From the NCBI GenBank assembly GCA_913020235.1, contig CAJWBT010000092.1:1-8264 (forward strand): 8,264 nt of DNA, in the 5' to 3' direction. A model generated the notes under the pieces. It did not search any database and was not told the DNA's origin. It saw only the letters and a list, made by a program, of their open reading frames with translations. The translations under genes and the position numbers were made by a program. This stretch comes from an uncultured Chloroflexota bacterium (GTDB lineage Bacteria > Chloroflexota > Dehalococcoidia > UBA3495). Shown piece by piece: positions 1 through 7,711 of this stretch (positions within the stretch are counted from its first letter, which is position 1; the number at the start of each line of letters is the position of its first letter).

Positions 1-269
1 AGCTGGAAATACTCCTTGTAGTCCACGCAGGCCAGGCACAGGAGCTGATTCAAGGCAAGCCTGGGGTCCTCTTTGGCCAACCGGCACACCAGCTCGGTGT
101 CCCCGGGTTCGATGGCTATCTGCGGAAGGTCGTGGAGGACGCCCGGCACCGGATGGAAATCTTTGAACACCTCCCGGGACACCGCAAGCAGCTCCCGGTT
201 GGACTGGCTCAAGCCCTGGCCTTCGTCCTGAGCCGAATCCGATGGCTTGGTGTTACTATTTTCCGCCAC
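1..269 (-). CDS. nuoC: NADH-quinone oxidoreductase subunit C (N-terminal part, cut by window edge)
   Basis: Subunit C belongs to the peripheral arm of respiratory complex I, on the cytoplasmic side of the membrane, and helps join the NuoB/NuoD module. Only the first 89 codons are present; the gene runs off the left edge. After a polar, probably disordered start of about 30 residues, the segment ending [17 protein letters not shown] resembles the NuoC N-terminal fold, where a leucine-rich helix leads to a conserved (G/C)VDY. I chose the GTG at 269-267, which overlaps the end of nuoB by 14 bases; there is no in-frame ATG nearby. Its purine-rich upstream stretch (AAAGAGA) touches the start codon, so translation probably depends on coupling to nuoB. 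A start further in is possible. The identification rests mainly on its place directly after nuoB and on the short VDY region. Confidence 0.8.
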
Positions 270-789
270 TCTCTTTGGCGTCCTGCATGATCTTTTCCTG
301 GAGCTTGAGGATACCGTACAGCAGTGCCTCCGGACGGGGCGGACAGCCCGGAACATACACGTCCACGGGGATCACGTGGTCTACCCCCATCACCACCGAG
401 TAGGACCGGTAATAGGGCCCTCCGTTGGTGGCGCAACTGCCCATGGCGATGACCCATTTCGGCTCCGGCATCTGCTCGTAAAGCAGCCGGATGGGGTCGG
501 CCATCTTCTTGACCACCGTCCCAGCAACAATCATCACGTCCGACTGGCGGGGCGAGGGCCACGTCACCACGCCAAACCGGTCGAAGTCGTAATGGGCCAT
601 GTAGGTAGACATCATTTCAATGGCGCAGCAGGCCAGCCCAAAGCTCAGCATCCACAGAGAAGACTTGCGGGCCATGGCGAACAACTGGCCTGTGGTGGTG
701 GTGATTACGCCGGGCACCATCCCAGACAAAGTCCGGTCCAACAGAGAGGAAGCCGGACGATTGCCTTGCCCCAGAGTCACCTCTGCCAA
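256..789 (-). CDS. nuoB: NADH-quinone oxidoreductase subunit B
   Basis: NuoB carries iron-sulfur cluster N2, the last cluster of the complex I chain, which passes electrons to quinone. The 177-residue length is typical. All four N2 cysteine positions are present: the tandem Cys54-Cys55 in [10 protein letters not shown], Cys119 in [10 protein letters not shown] and Cys149 in VPGCPPRPE. The conserved DFDRFG (68-73) and SPRQSD (79-84) stretches are also there. The start codon is TTG (789-787), 13 bases inside the end of nuoA, with a purine-rich GAAGAAGGGG about 10 bases upstream. A GTG three codons later is the alternative start. The overlaps on both sides point to translational coupling in a nuoABC operon. 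The protein should be peripheral, at the junction of membrane and hydrophilic arms. The identification is firm; only the exact start is open. Confidence 0.97.
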
Positions 790-1199
790 TCGAGAGACCC
801 CTTCTTCCAGGCGTAGACTATGGCGAAAGAGAGCACGCCCAGGAACAGCATCATGGCGTAGAAAGGAACCGAGTTGGCCGCGGTGGCTTTCTGCTGCAGG
901 AATATTACGGCCCAGGGAAACAGGAATACGGCTTCCACGTCAAAGATCAGAAAAAGTATGGCGAAGATGTAAAACCGGACGTGGATGTTGGACCATATAT
1001 ACCTGGCGGCGGGGATTCCGCACTCGTAGGAGGTAAGCTTCAACTCGGACTGCCGCCGGGATGACAGAATCCGCGACGCCCCGAACATAGCCCCGATGGC
1101 CACCACCGCGATCCCAGCGGAGATAGCAACCGCAGCCCAGTTCTCGGCGAACAGGTCCGCATTGAAAGCTTGGAGAATTATACTGGGGTGAGGTTCCAT
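777..1199 (-). CDS. nuoA: NADH-quinone oxidoreductase subunit A
   Basis: NuoA is a small integral membrane subunit of complex I near the quinone site. The 140 residues hold three hydrophobic segments at about 21-43, 76-100 and 111-130, as expected. Family marks are SYECGIP at 57-63 (the conserved loop with Cys60), followed by [17 protein letters not shown] with Asp87 and Glu89 in the second membrane segment. The ATG at 1199 lies directly after GAAGGA, so the ribosome site is unusually close to the start; no better in-frame start is evident. It is the first gene of the nuo operon and follows a near-consensus promoter at 1287-1259, giving a leader of about 53 bases. Its last codons overlap nuoB. 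Confidence 0.96.
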
Positions 1200-1218: not shown

Positions 1219-1337
1219 GGACCGCCAATCGGGCTTCCGGGGTCGACGCCTTGGATTCAATATACATCCGCCAGGGTTTAGTGTCAATTGAAAATGACCA
1301 GTACGGATGGCCGGCCCGGAAGCCCGATTGGCGGTCC
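1219..1337. repeat. perfect 23-bp inverted repeat flanking the nuo promoter
   Basis: The left arm (1219-1241, beginning GGACCGCCAATC) is the exact reverse complement of the right arm (1315-1337, ending GATTGGCGGTCC). The 73 bases between hold the nuo promoter. The centre of symmetry (about 1278) is within 5 bases of the promoter centre (1273). Relative to the predicted transcription start, one arm lies at about +11 to +33 and the other at about -63 to -85, so a transcript from this promoter carries only one arm. Read-through from the gene ending at 1341 would carry both and could form a 23-bp stem. No target-site duplication is obvious at the outer ends. Possible readings are an invertible promoter, a paired operator for DNA looping, or a small palindromic insertion. 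Confidence 0.9.
1259..1287 (-). promoter_or_regulatory. sigma70-type promoter of the nuo operon
   Basis: Read on the minus strand, TTGACA (1287-1282, 6/6 to consensus) and TATATT (1264-1259, 5/6) are separated by exactly 17 bases. The expected start of transcription is near 1252, about 53 bases before the nuoA ATG. It is the best promoter match I see in the window. It lies almost at the centre of the 23-bp inverted repeat at 1219-1337. Confidence 0.75.
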
Positions 1338-1340
1338 CGG

Positions 1341-2474
1341 TCAGTCGCGGGAGCGCAACGCCGTGGAGGAGATGTCCGCCCGGAACCGGGCCTCGGGGAT
1401 ACTCTGGAAAAGCGGGCTGAATCCCGGTGGAATGGCCACGTCCTCCAGGGTGCGAAACGCGCCGCTGTCCTCCCGGCCGGCCACCAAAAAGCGGCATCCG
1501 GCAGCCGCTATCTCGGCCAACGCCAGGAGCATCGCAGACTCCTCTCCGCCGTAGTACTGGGCCGCAACCAGGCGCACCGCCGTATCCCAGCCGATGACGA
1601 ACGTGCACCCTGGGAACAGGACGGCCTTCTTGTGAAAAGTCTCCGCCCGGGTTAGCACCACGCGCTCCCCGCTGGCAAACTGGCCCAACCGCCGCCTGAT
1701 TTCGGCCTCGGCGAGGGGCGGCTTGTCCACGTTGGTAACCGATAGCTCGAAGACCACGTCAACGTCCAAGATTTCCGCGGCGGTGCGAGCCAACTCCTCG
1801 TGGCCTCGGTGCAAGGGCGCAAAGGACCCCGACAGCACGGCCTCCGGAGCCGCCCCGTCCACGACCATCCGGCCGTCGGGCCCAAGCGTCGCGGTACCGG
1901 CCTCGCCGGACAGAAGCCGCTTCAGAGGATTGGGATGGCGCTTTCGCTGGATGGCAAGGTCGTCGGCGCCGCTCAAGCCCGGTGGGAGCCCCGGCTCCAA
2001 TCCGCAAGCCCCGGCCAGGGCGTGGACAATCAGCCGGCTTACCAGCTCTTCCTCACCCGCCCGGTCCCGGTGGCCCTTGGCCAAGCGGAGGTTATACGAG
2101 GCCGTTCCGGCATCGTCCCAGGCGGCGATATAGCAGCGGTGGGCGCCCCGTTTCGGCCGGTCGGTGGCGATTGCGGCGGTGCAGGCCAAGCCGACGACCG
2201 GAGGCTCGCCTTCCCGCAGGCGCATCCCCCGCCGGTAGGCGGCCCGGGCCATGGCCCTGGCGGTTTCCTGGGACACAAATTGGTCTGGCTCGCACCCCAG
2301 GAGGTCGATCATCGAAAGCCTCCCGTAGGGTATCACCACCTCCAGAAGGGTGCGTGATGCACCGGCGACGCCCAAGAGCCAGGCGACCGCCTGGCTGCCC
2401 GCGCCGGAGACGGCCAGTACCGCCTGCCGGGGCGAATCGTGGATCTTACGGATCACGTCTTCGACGGCACTCAT
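1341..2474 (-). CDS. CinA/PncC-like domain fused to an HxGH nucleotidyltransferase
   Basis: This is a two-domain protein of 377 residues. Residues about 1-165 resemble the CinA C-terminal (PncC) fold: AVSGAGSQAVAWLL (21-34), where canonical enzymes have AESCTGG, then TLLEVVIPYG (42-51) and VVGLACTAAIATDRPKRGA (93-111), which matches the VTGIAGPxGG region but is degenerate. Residues about 205-377 form a nucleotidyltransferase of the NMN/cytidylyltransferase superfamily. Its marks are SGSFAPLHRGHEEL with the HxGH nucleotide site at 222-225, NVDKPPL at 248-254, and a closing ISSTALR at 368-374. PncC enzymes deamidate NMN to nicotinate mononucleotide, and NadD/NadM enzymes of the second family adenylate such mononucleotides. 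A salvage role is therefore attractive but unproven, and the PncC motifs are altered. From memory, plant proteins annotated as nucleotidylyl transferase superfamily share this layout. I start at ATG 2474; the frame stays open to 2585, but that extra part is Pro-rich and looks non-coding. Confidence 0.8.
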   Translation of the reverse strand: MSAVEDVIRKIHDSPRQAVLAVSGAGSQAVAWLLGVAGASRTLLEVVIPYGRLSMIDLLGCEPDQFVSQETARAMARAAYRRGMRLREGEPPVVGLACTAAIATDRPKRGAHRCYIAAWDDAGTASYNLRLAKGHRDRAGEEELVSRLIVHALAGACGLEPGLPPGLSGADDLAIQRKRHPNPLKRLLSGEAGTATLGPDGRMVVDGAAPEAVLSGSFAPLHRGHEELARTAAEILDVDVVFELSVTNVDKPPLAEAEIRRRLGQFASGERVVLTRAETFHKKAVLFPGCTFVIGWDTAVRLVAAQYYGGEESAMLLALAEIAAAGCRFLVAGREDSGAFRTLEDVAIPPGFSPLFQSIPEARFRADISSTALRSRD

Positions 2475-2619
2475 CTCTGAAAGCGCCCCGATGCCCGGAG
2501 CAAGGAGAATCCAGAGTCCCGGCTTGGGCGGAGAATCCGGAGCGCCGGGTCGACTGTGGGGCCGTGGGTCGGCGGTGGGGCACACAGGGCAAGACGTTCA
2601 CCGGGTGTATTCGATACTT

Positions 2620-3210
2620 TCAAGGGGTCCGGCCGCCCGGCTGCCAAGGGGTGAAATCGATCTCTGCCATCTGGGACATGGAGTGCTGGATCTCTTTGCC
2701 GATCTTCAGGGTCCACGCCGCCATCACCGCCGCCGGCAGCCGCCGCGCCGCATCCCGCCACCAGAGGGGCTCGCCTTCGGTGACGGTGTCGCCCTCCAGC
2801 ACCTCACCCAGAAAGCAGGTCATGTCTCCGGCGTCCATGGCGTTGACCACCCGGCAGTCCAGGTACCCCCAGCAGTCCCGGAGGACCGGGCTGCCCGACG
2901 ACTTCAGATCGTACTCTACCGTGGATAGCTTGTCCCGGTCCCGGCCCGACACCAGGCCAAACCCGGTAACCAGATCCAGCTGGTCCTGGCGGAGAAAGTT
3001 CACCGCGAAAGCTCCGCTGCCGTAGATCAGCCCGTGACTGTAGTTCCGCTTGTATATCTGCACGACCACCCGAGGCATGCTGGGTACGATGGACGCGGCG
3101 CCGATGGCCACCGCGATCTGGGCGTTGGACTTCCCCTGCCACTGGCTGGTCACCGCGGCAACGGGGGACCACAGGTGGCCCATCAGGCGTGCGATGCGGC
3201 TATGTTCCAT
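2620..3210 (-). CDS. flavin reductase-like domain protein (FMN-binding split barrel)
   Basis: The 196 residues match the flavin reductase-like family (DIM6/NTAB, COG1853), soluble FMN-binding split-barrel proteins that often reduce free flavin with NAD(P)H for a partner monooxygenase. Visible marks are SPVAAVTSQWQGKSNAQIAV (15-34), the P-R/K-V-type stretch MPRVVVQIYKRNYSHGLI (45-62), AFAVNFL (67-73), and GLVSGRDRDK (85-94), like the family GxxSGRDxDK. CRVVNAMDAGDMTCFLGEV (119-137) corresponds to the strand that usually reads GDHxLFxGEV. No monooxygenase partner lies in the window, so the substrate is unknown. The ATG at 3210 has only a weak ribosome site; just upstream is a three-copy 14-bp repeat. 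The 145 bases between its stop and the next gene hold no gene and no clear terminator, so joint transcription with the CinA-like gene is possible. Confidence 0.85.
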   Translation of the reverse strand: MEHSRIARLMGHLWSPVAAVTSQWQGKSNAQIAVAIGAASIVPSMPRVVVQIYKRNYSHGLIYGSGAFAVNFLRQDQLDLVTGFGLVSGRDRDKLSTVEYDLKSSGSPVLRDCWGYLDCRVVNAMDAGDMTCFLGEVLEGDTVTEGEPLWWRDAARRLPAAVMAAWTLKIGKEIQHSMSQMAEIDFTPWQPGGRTP

Positions 3211-7005: not shown

Positions 7006-7064
7006 AACACCCCTCACCGCCGGCCCTTCTCCCAGCGGGAGAGGGGCCTGGAGTGAGGGGTGTT
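7006..7064. repeat. palindromic repeat copy 1 (two nested stems), possible trmD terminator
   Basis: AACACCCCTCAC (7006-7017) and GTGAGGGGTGTT (7053-7064) make a perfect 12-bp outer stem. Inside it, GGCCCTTCTCCC and GGGAGAGGGGCC (7022-7033 and 7037-7048) make a second 12-bp stem with one T-G pair and a 3-base loop. It begins 35 bases after the trmD stop and is followed by ATTTTC, so it may serve as a terminator. A related, same-orientation copy lies at 7641-7711. Confidence 0.85.
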
Positions 7065-7640: not shown

Positions 7641-7711
7641 GCCCTCACCCTCGGTCCTTCTCCCATCGGGGAGAGGGATGCACCCGGCGCAGCCGGGGGC
7701 TGGGTGAGGGC
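7641..7711. repeat. palindromic repeat copy 2 (three stems)
   Basis: GCCCTCACCC (7641-7650) and GGGTGAGGGC (7702-7711) form a perfect 10-bp outer stem. Within it are an inner CTTCTCCC / GGGAGAGG stem like that of copy 1, and an extra CCCGGC-GCA-GCCGGG hairpin (7683-7697) absent from copy 1. Both copies have the same orientation and share the CCCTCACC, CCTTCTCCC and GGAGTGAGGG-like blocks. This looks like a REP/MITE-like family of GC-rich genomes. It lies 48 bases after the thioesterase stop. Confidence 0.85.

Follow-up and report, generated by a model that had tools for sequence, protein, structure and literature searches.

A perfect inverted repeat around a promoter-like site upstream of nuoA, tentatively interpreted as a static pair of a short repeat rather than as an invertible switch

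Can a bacterium turn its respiratory complex I on and off by flipping a promoter? The question is raised by the DNA in front of nuoA in the 8.3-kb window analysed here (the whole stretch of DNA under study, at its full length), where a perfect inverted repeat encloses a promoter-like site directed at the nuo operon. A flipping promoter would place complex I under phase control, a mode of regulation known mainly for surface structures, and the two states should be readable directly from existing metagenome reads. If the promoter is static, the locus carries a caution instead, namely that long perfect inverted repeats resemble switches when they are judged against shuffled sequence. Our tentative answer is the latter: we assign a probability of about 0.45 to the view that the locus holds two inverted, static copies of a short repeat, probably a dispersed one, on either side of the nuo promoter. 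The features to which we refer are the following, in the order of their coordinates.

256-789, minus strand: nuoB, which follows nuoA in the operon (PF01058, E 3.5e-31)
777-1199, minus strand: nuoA, NADH-quinone oxidoreductase subunit A (PF00507, E 1.1e-30), the first gene downstream of the putative promoter
1207-1218, no strand: 12-nt dyad GAGTA-GG-TACTC, read from the sequence, between the left arm and the nuoA start
1219-1241, no strand: left arm of the repeat, 23 nt, exact reverse complement of 1315-1337
1242-1314, no strand: spacer, 73 nt, with a GC content of 49% (arms 74%, window 64%)
1259-1264, minus strand: -10-like hexamer TATATT, a consensus match 17 nt from the -35-like hexamer
1282-1287, minus strand: -35-like hexamer TTGACA, a consensus match only
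1315-1337, no strand: right arm of the repeat, 23 nt, with 3 nt between it and the stop codon of the upstream gene
1341-2585, minus strand: gene upstream of nuoA and co-directional with it, whose C-terminal part is nucleotidyltransferase-like (PF01467)

The initial annotation of this DNA had described a perfect 23-bp inverted repeat set around a near-consensus promoter aimed at nuoA, in the layout of an invertible segment, and this description of the arms, the spacer and the orientation of the promoter is accurate. The arms at 1219-1241 (sequence GGACCGCCAATCGGGCTTCCGGG) and 1315-1337 are reverse-complementary at 23/23 positions and lie 73 nt apart, with a start-to-start spacing of 96 nt, and the spacer contains the pattern TTGACA-17-TATATT on the minus strand, which matches the consensus at 11/12 positions. 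The repeat is therefore confirmed as an observation and is striking on paper: the longest exact arm per window was 9-15 nt in 200 order-2 Markov windows (exact arms, spacer limit of about 300), versus the 23 nt observed, and the next-longest exact arm in the window itself measures 12 nt. With up to 3 mismatches allowed, the only places of the arm in the window are the two arms, and two matches were obtained in 0/200 shuffles. Promoter-like sites scoring at least 11/12 are also infrequent, with one found in 200 resampled windows.

The claim that the two centres lie within 5 bases of each other is likewise correct (promoter centre 1273, repeat centre 1278). However, only 141 noncoding nt separate the nuoA ATG (1199) from the stop codon of the upstream gene (1341-1343), and the repeat spans 119 of them, so that any nuo promoter located in this gap must fall inside the repeat. 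Enclosure of the nuo promoter is thus half expected, and since it is nearly forced if nuo has its promoter in the gap, the near-centring provides weak evidence of design. With transcription assumed to start near 1252, an assumption on which the positions of both arms depend, the left arm would occupy approximately +12 to +34 of the predicted 5' untranslated region of nuoA, and the right arm approximately -63 to -85. A purine-rich GAAGGA abuts the nuoA ATG directly, which makes for an unusually short ribosome-site spacing.

Perfect inverted repeats of this kind are far commoner in real genomes than in resampled sequence. A control sample of 1,046,227 bases, taken as 60 slices from 40 other genomes, contained in total 12 perfect inverted repeats with arms of at least 20 nt and spacers of 20-300 nt, i.e. 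about 0.1 per 8.3-kb window. Six of the control arms were searched for genome-wide, and all six recur, at 215, 25, 206, 37, 856 and 23 places (2-3 mismatches allowed), while the reversed-pattern control of each of these searches gave 0. The remaining six belong to one genome, and the first 16 nt of these arms are found 4-13 times across its three slices. Repeated arms are therefore established for 12/12 control repeats (six genome-wide, six within slices), a figure that is a guide and not a rate, with seven of the 12 repeats coming from one genome (two of these with overlapping arms), all 12 from five genomes, and the control genomes having been chosen as relatives of a Reyranella metagenome-assembled genome (MAG), presumably with no Chloroflexota among them. 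A control arm of 19 nt is also repeated, at 143 places. As all 12 comparable repeats have repeated arms, any candidate of this type should first be checked for the number of its copies in the host genome. For two control arms, an exact 21-mer was sought in 30 further genomes each, picked as relatives; one arm turned up in 1 of these genomes and the other in 0, so that a dispersed arm can be restricted to a single species or a few. Three control genomes (G070, G050 and G001) each possess one very abundant arm (856, 215 and 206 places, respectively), many copies of which, among those listed, stand as facing pairs at similar distances.

According to the reading that we prefer, the arms upstream of nuoA would be two facing copies of a short repeat, most likely one of the dispersed intergenic REP- or MITE-like type, which would have come to rest on both sides of the nuo promoter. 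RNA polymerase would read the minus-strand TTGACA-17-TATATT and transcribe the nuo operon through the left arm in the ordinary way. The arms would switch nothing, and their only likely effect would be exerted on RNA that reads through from upstream, which would carry both of them and fold into a 23-bp hairpin. We infer that further copies of the arm are present in the host's own genome and that the promoter is in use.

The exact 21-mer of the arm was searched for in one genome each of 84,980 species and gave one match, in a Reyranella MAG, where no second place was found with up to 3 mismatches and where the match lies on a different contig from that genome's nuoA match. Since control arms are themselves confined to few species, the near-absence of the window's arm elsewhere is no argument against a dispersed repeat. 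What does count against it is that no further copy of the arm occurs within the 8.3-kb window with up to 3 mismatches. The arm is neither more palindromic nor better folded than chance: 1143/2000 random 23-mers from the window are as symmetric, and shuffled versions fold equally well in 73 of 200 cases for one strand and in 85 of 200 for the other, in a folding test that separates repeats poorly (only 1/8 control arms beats 95% of the shuffles on both strands, and 3/8 are worse than most). An internal dyad in the arms, as expected of half-sites for an operator or a recombinase, was considered and found to be not above chance. Neither the arm nor an arm pair with a gap of 60-90 nt was found in viral contigs, and a 146-nt region had no match among plasmids and phages. 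A spurious plus-strand ORF across the repeat, used as a bait for the intergenic DNA of relatives, retrieved none at E <=10 among 115 candidates.

The promoter inside the repeat bears on how such a pair could have arisen. Among 20 control repeats with arms of at least 17 nt, four leave no room for a promoter in the spacer and the other 16 enclose sites of at most 8/12, versus 11 in the window, a comparison in which the control spacers are mostly GC-richer than the window's spacer and a promoter match is accordingly less likely in them. It would be unusual for an inserted unit to contain an 11/12 promoter by chance, because none of these 16 roomy control repeats encloses a site above 8/12. A whole inserted unit would have to bring the promoter along, and therefore paired single repeats around a native promoter, or a local copy, fit the locus better. 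Elsewhere in the window, a hairpin at 7006-7064 (28-nt arms, 3-nt loop, 86% complementary) lies between a trmD-like and a thioesterase gene, and its left part has a direct relative (86%) about 630 nt away, at 7642-7670; the hairpin may be an intergenic repeat that is dispersed in this genome.

Comparison with known mobile repeats places the locus close to two classes and in neither of them. MITEs are short gene-free units bounded by terminal inverted repeats. The window's repeat likewise has terminal inverted repeats and no gene, but differs from a MITE by having no target-site duplication: there is no direct repeat at its ends, and a 2-nt match appears only after 6 nt have been trimmed. REPINs and REP doublets, as presented in the excerpts of PMC3116915 and PMC2817692, likewise consist of two short identical inverted intergenic sequences that span about 100 bp and can form one hairpin. 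The spacing of 96 nt falls within the range of REP doublets (about 70-110 nt) and lies between 71 and 110, the two commonest doublet spacings given for one Pseudomonas genome in the excerpt of PMC3116915. On the other hand, the window's arms are not palindromic as those of REPINs are, and here the spacer carries a near-consensus promoter. The repeat is not filed as a REPIN, because its arms are not palindromic, or as a MITE, because the target is not duplicated.

The genes on both sides of the repeat indicate the kind of host and the age of the arrangement. Where the 120 relatives listed for each flanking gene carry an organism name, it is Dehalococcoidia, SAR202 or Chloroflexi, and we therefore regard the host as a bacterium of this kind. 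The window itself establishes the order of the upstream gene and nuo. Contigs of the same size that are common to the lists of 120 relatives of the upstream protein and of NuoA number 14, versus 0-3 in 12 shifted lists, which indirectly suggests that this order is old and that, in a number of relatives, the upstream gene probably lies next to nuo.

Among the alternatives to the static pair of a short repeat, the one that survives best, although we regard it as unlikely, is a one-off local event, in which a template switch during replication copied one flank of the promoter in inverted form to the other side, leaving a recent and functionless pair with no other copies. Such an event would explain the perfect identity of the arms, by its recency, together with the native promoter between them, the lack of a target duplication and of any arm elsewhere in the window, and the near-absence of the arm in other species. 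It would also explain the situation in P0003, a relative whose upstream protein is 85% identical and whose frame extends 16 residues beyond the window's stop, across the position of the right arm. None of the six possible translations of the arm was present in this tail when it was inspected by eye, and hence the exact arm is not kept there, unless the gap of the relative has shifted. The tail, back-translated and compared with the right-arm region, was equalled by 47/500 shuffled tails, and homology is not shown by this comparison. The longer tails of P0006, P0019, P0021, P0027 and P0033 contained no arm translation by eye either, in proteins that are 67-69% identical and too distant to weigh. 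Against the local event stands the control survey, in which 0/12 repeats of such kind were one-off. Moreover, to copy 23 nt over a distance of 73 nt where no imperfect repeat is already present would be a rarer event than to correct one.

It is tempting to return to the invertible promoter, in which a site-specific recombinase would act at the arms and flip 1242-1314, turning the promoter toward or away from nuoA. Invertons are described in the excerpt of PMC11892184 as having inverted repeats of 10-40 nt that flank a promoter; the window's arms, exact over 23 nt, fall within this range and enclose a putative 11/12 promoter, unlike the 16 roomy control repeats. Recombination between the arms would, in addition, be expected to maintain their perfect identity. 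Nonetheless, what could be tested on inversion leans against it. The base rate of repeated arms among the control repeats (12/12) counts against a flipping segment, and no recombinase domain (Pfam) was seen in the 10 stretches scanned of the 52 listed ORFs, with only 1.2 kb visible on one side. The missing arm translation in the tail of P0003, inspected by eye, points the same way. The flipped promoter would be antisense into the upstream gene, no plus-strand gene occurs before 4902 among the ORFs taken as genes, and no visible gene would be served by the flipped state. The window's repeat also flanks a core respiratory operon rather than the surface genes typical of invertons, and a segment of 73 bp seems short for the synapsis of two sites. 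Our literature search retrieved nothing that joins an invertible promoter with the nuo operon, invertons with Chloroflexi, or SAR202 with the term invertible, and the search on phase variation, inverted repeats, NADH dehydrogenase and invertible returned only irrelevant work on expression of E. coli in urine. We consider a flipping segment to be distinctly unlikely, and the full claim, that inversion of the 73-bp promoter segment by a recombinase lets individual cells switch complex I on and off, in a phase variation of core energy metabolism, to be slightly more doubtful still.

An RNA element appears very improbable. It would require RNA reading through from upstream to form the 23-bp stem, which would be cut by a double-strand RNase or would protect the upstream message, and would thereby separate it from the nuo message. 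The potential to form the hairpin is established, since the two arms fold far beyond shuffles as RNA (-73.1 kcal/mol, z -6.0, 0/200) and also as DNA (z -6.8, 0/200 shuffles), and the co-directional arrangement of the upstream gene and nuo, with the two probably adjacent in a number of relatives, is also in its favour. A weak terminator-like site inside the spacer, a 5-pair stem followed by ATTTTCAATT at 1312-1296 on the minus strand, lies between the upstream gene and the nuo promoter and likewise speaks for this reading; the window contains 10 terminator-like sites, versus 5.0 (sd 2.5) in shuffles. However, the stability is due to the perfect arms, whereas the spacer alone (z 0.23) and the RNA from the assumed start (z 0.34) are unstructured, and a U-run follows neither arm. 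A long-kept RNA stem is expected to hold G-U pairs or mismatches, and this one is without any. The search against Rfam families at curated cut-offs found none. A microRNA family match over the whole stem (E 0.084, 20.4 bits versus a cut-off of 197) was taken as chance. An intrinsic terminator was rejected as well, there being no U-run in GAGTACCTACTCC, which follows the left arm on the minus strand, or in CGGTCAGTCGCGGG, which follows the right arm on the plus strand; the terminator scan takes loops of 3-8 only, which places a stem with a 73-nt loop outside its reach.

In gal repression, a DNA loop forms between two operator sites. The least probable reading of the window's arms is that they are two such sites, located at about -74 and +23 and bound by a single regulator, with DNA looping over the promoter: their centres, 96 bp or about 9.1 helical turns apart, bracket the promoter with the near-integral helical spacing of two identical gal-type sites, but the arms have no significant internal dyad of the kind expected of a dimer's operator, they are longer and more exact than gal-type operators, operators do not usually stay identical over as many as 23 nt, and the exact 21-mer lies beside nuo in no genome of the 84,980-species collection, which may lack close relatives.

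Several minor observations concern the upstream gene. Its closest protein match, P0001, is annotated as 377 aa long instead of 414, and a listed relative, P0005, also bears PF02464, which we take to be CinA. Queries with the single proteins of the upstream gene and of nuoA found no relatives in viral contigs, and an alignment query found two relatives of the upstream gene there, 28% identical. These cover residues 1-374 and are located on IMG/VR contigs of 195 and 253 kb (L006 5001-6251 and L007 5001-6221); they may represent a version of the upstream protein found in large phages. No nuoA was seen among the nine ORFs listed around the relative in L006. Finally, P0014 (586 aa) joins a flavin reductase-like part (compare 2620-3210 of the window) and the upstream protein in one predicted protein, a hint that the two are linked, or else a fusion produced by gene calling.
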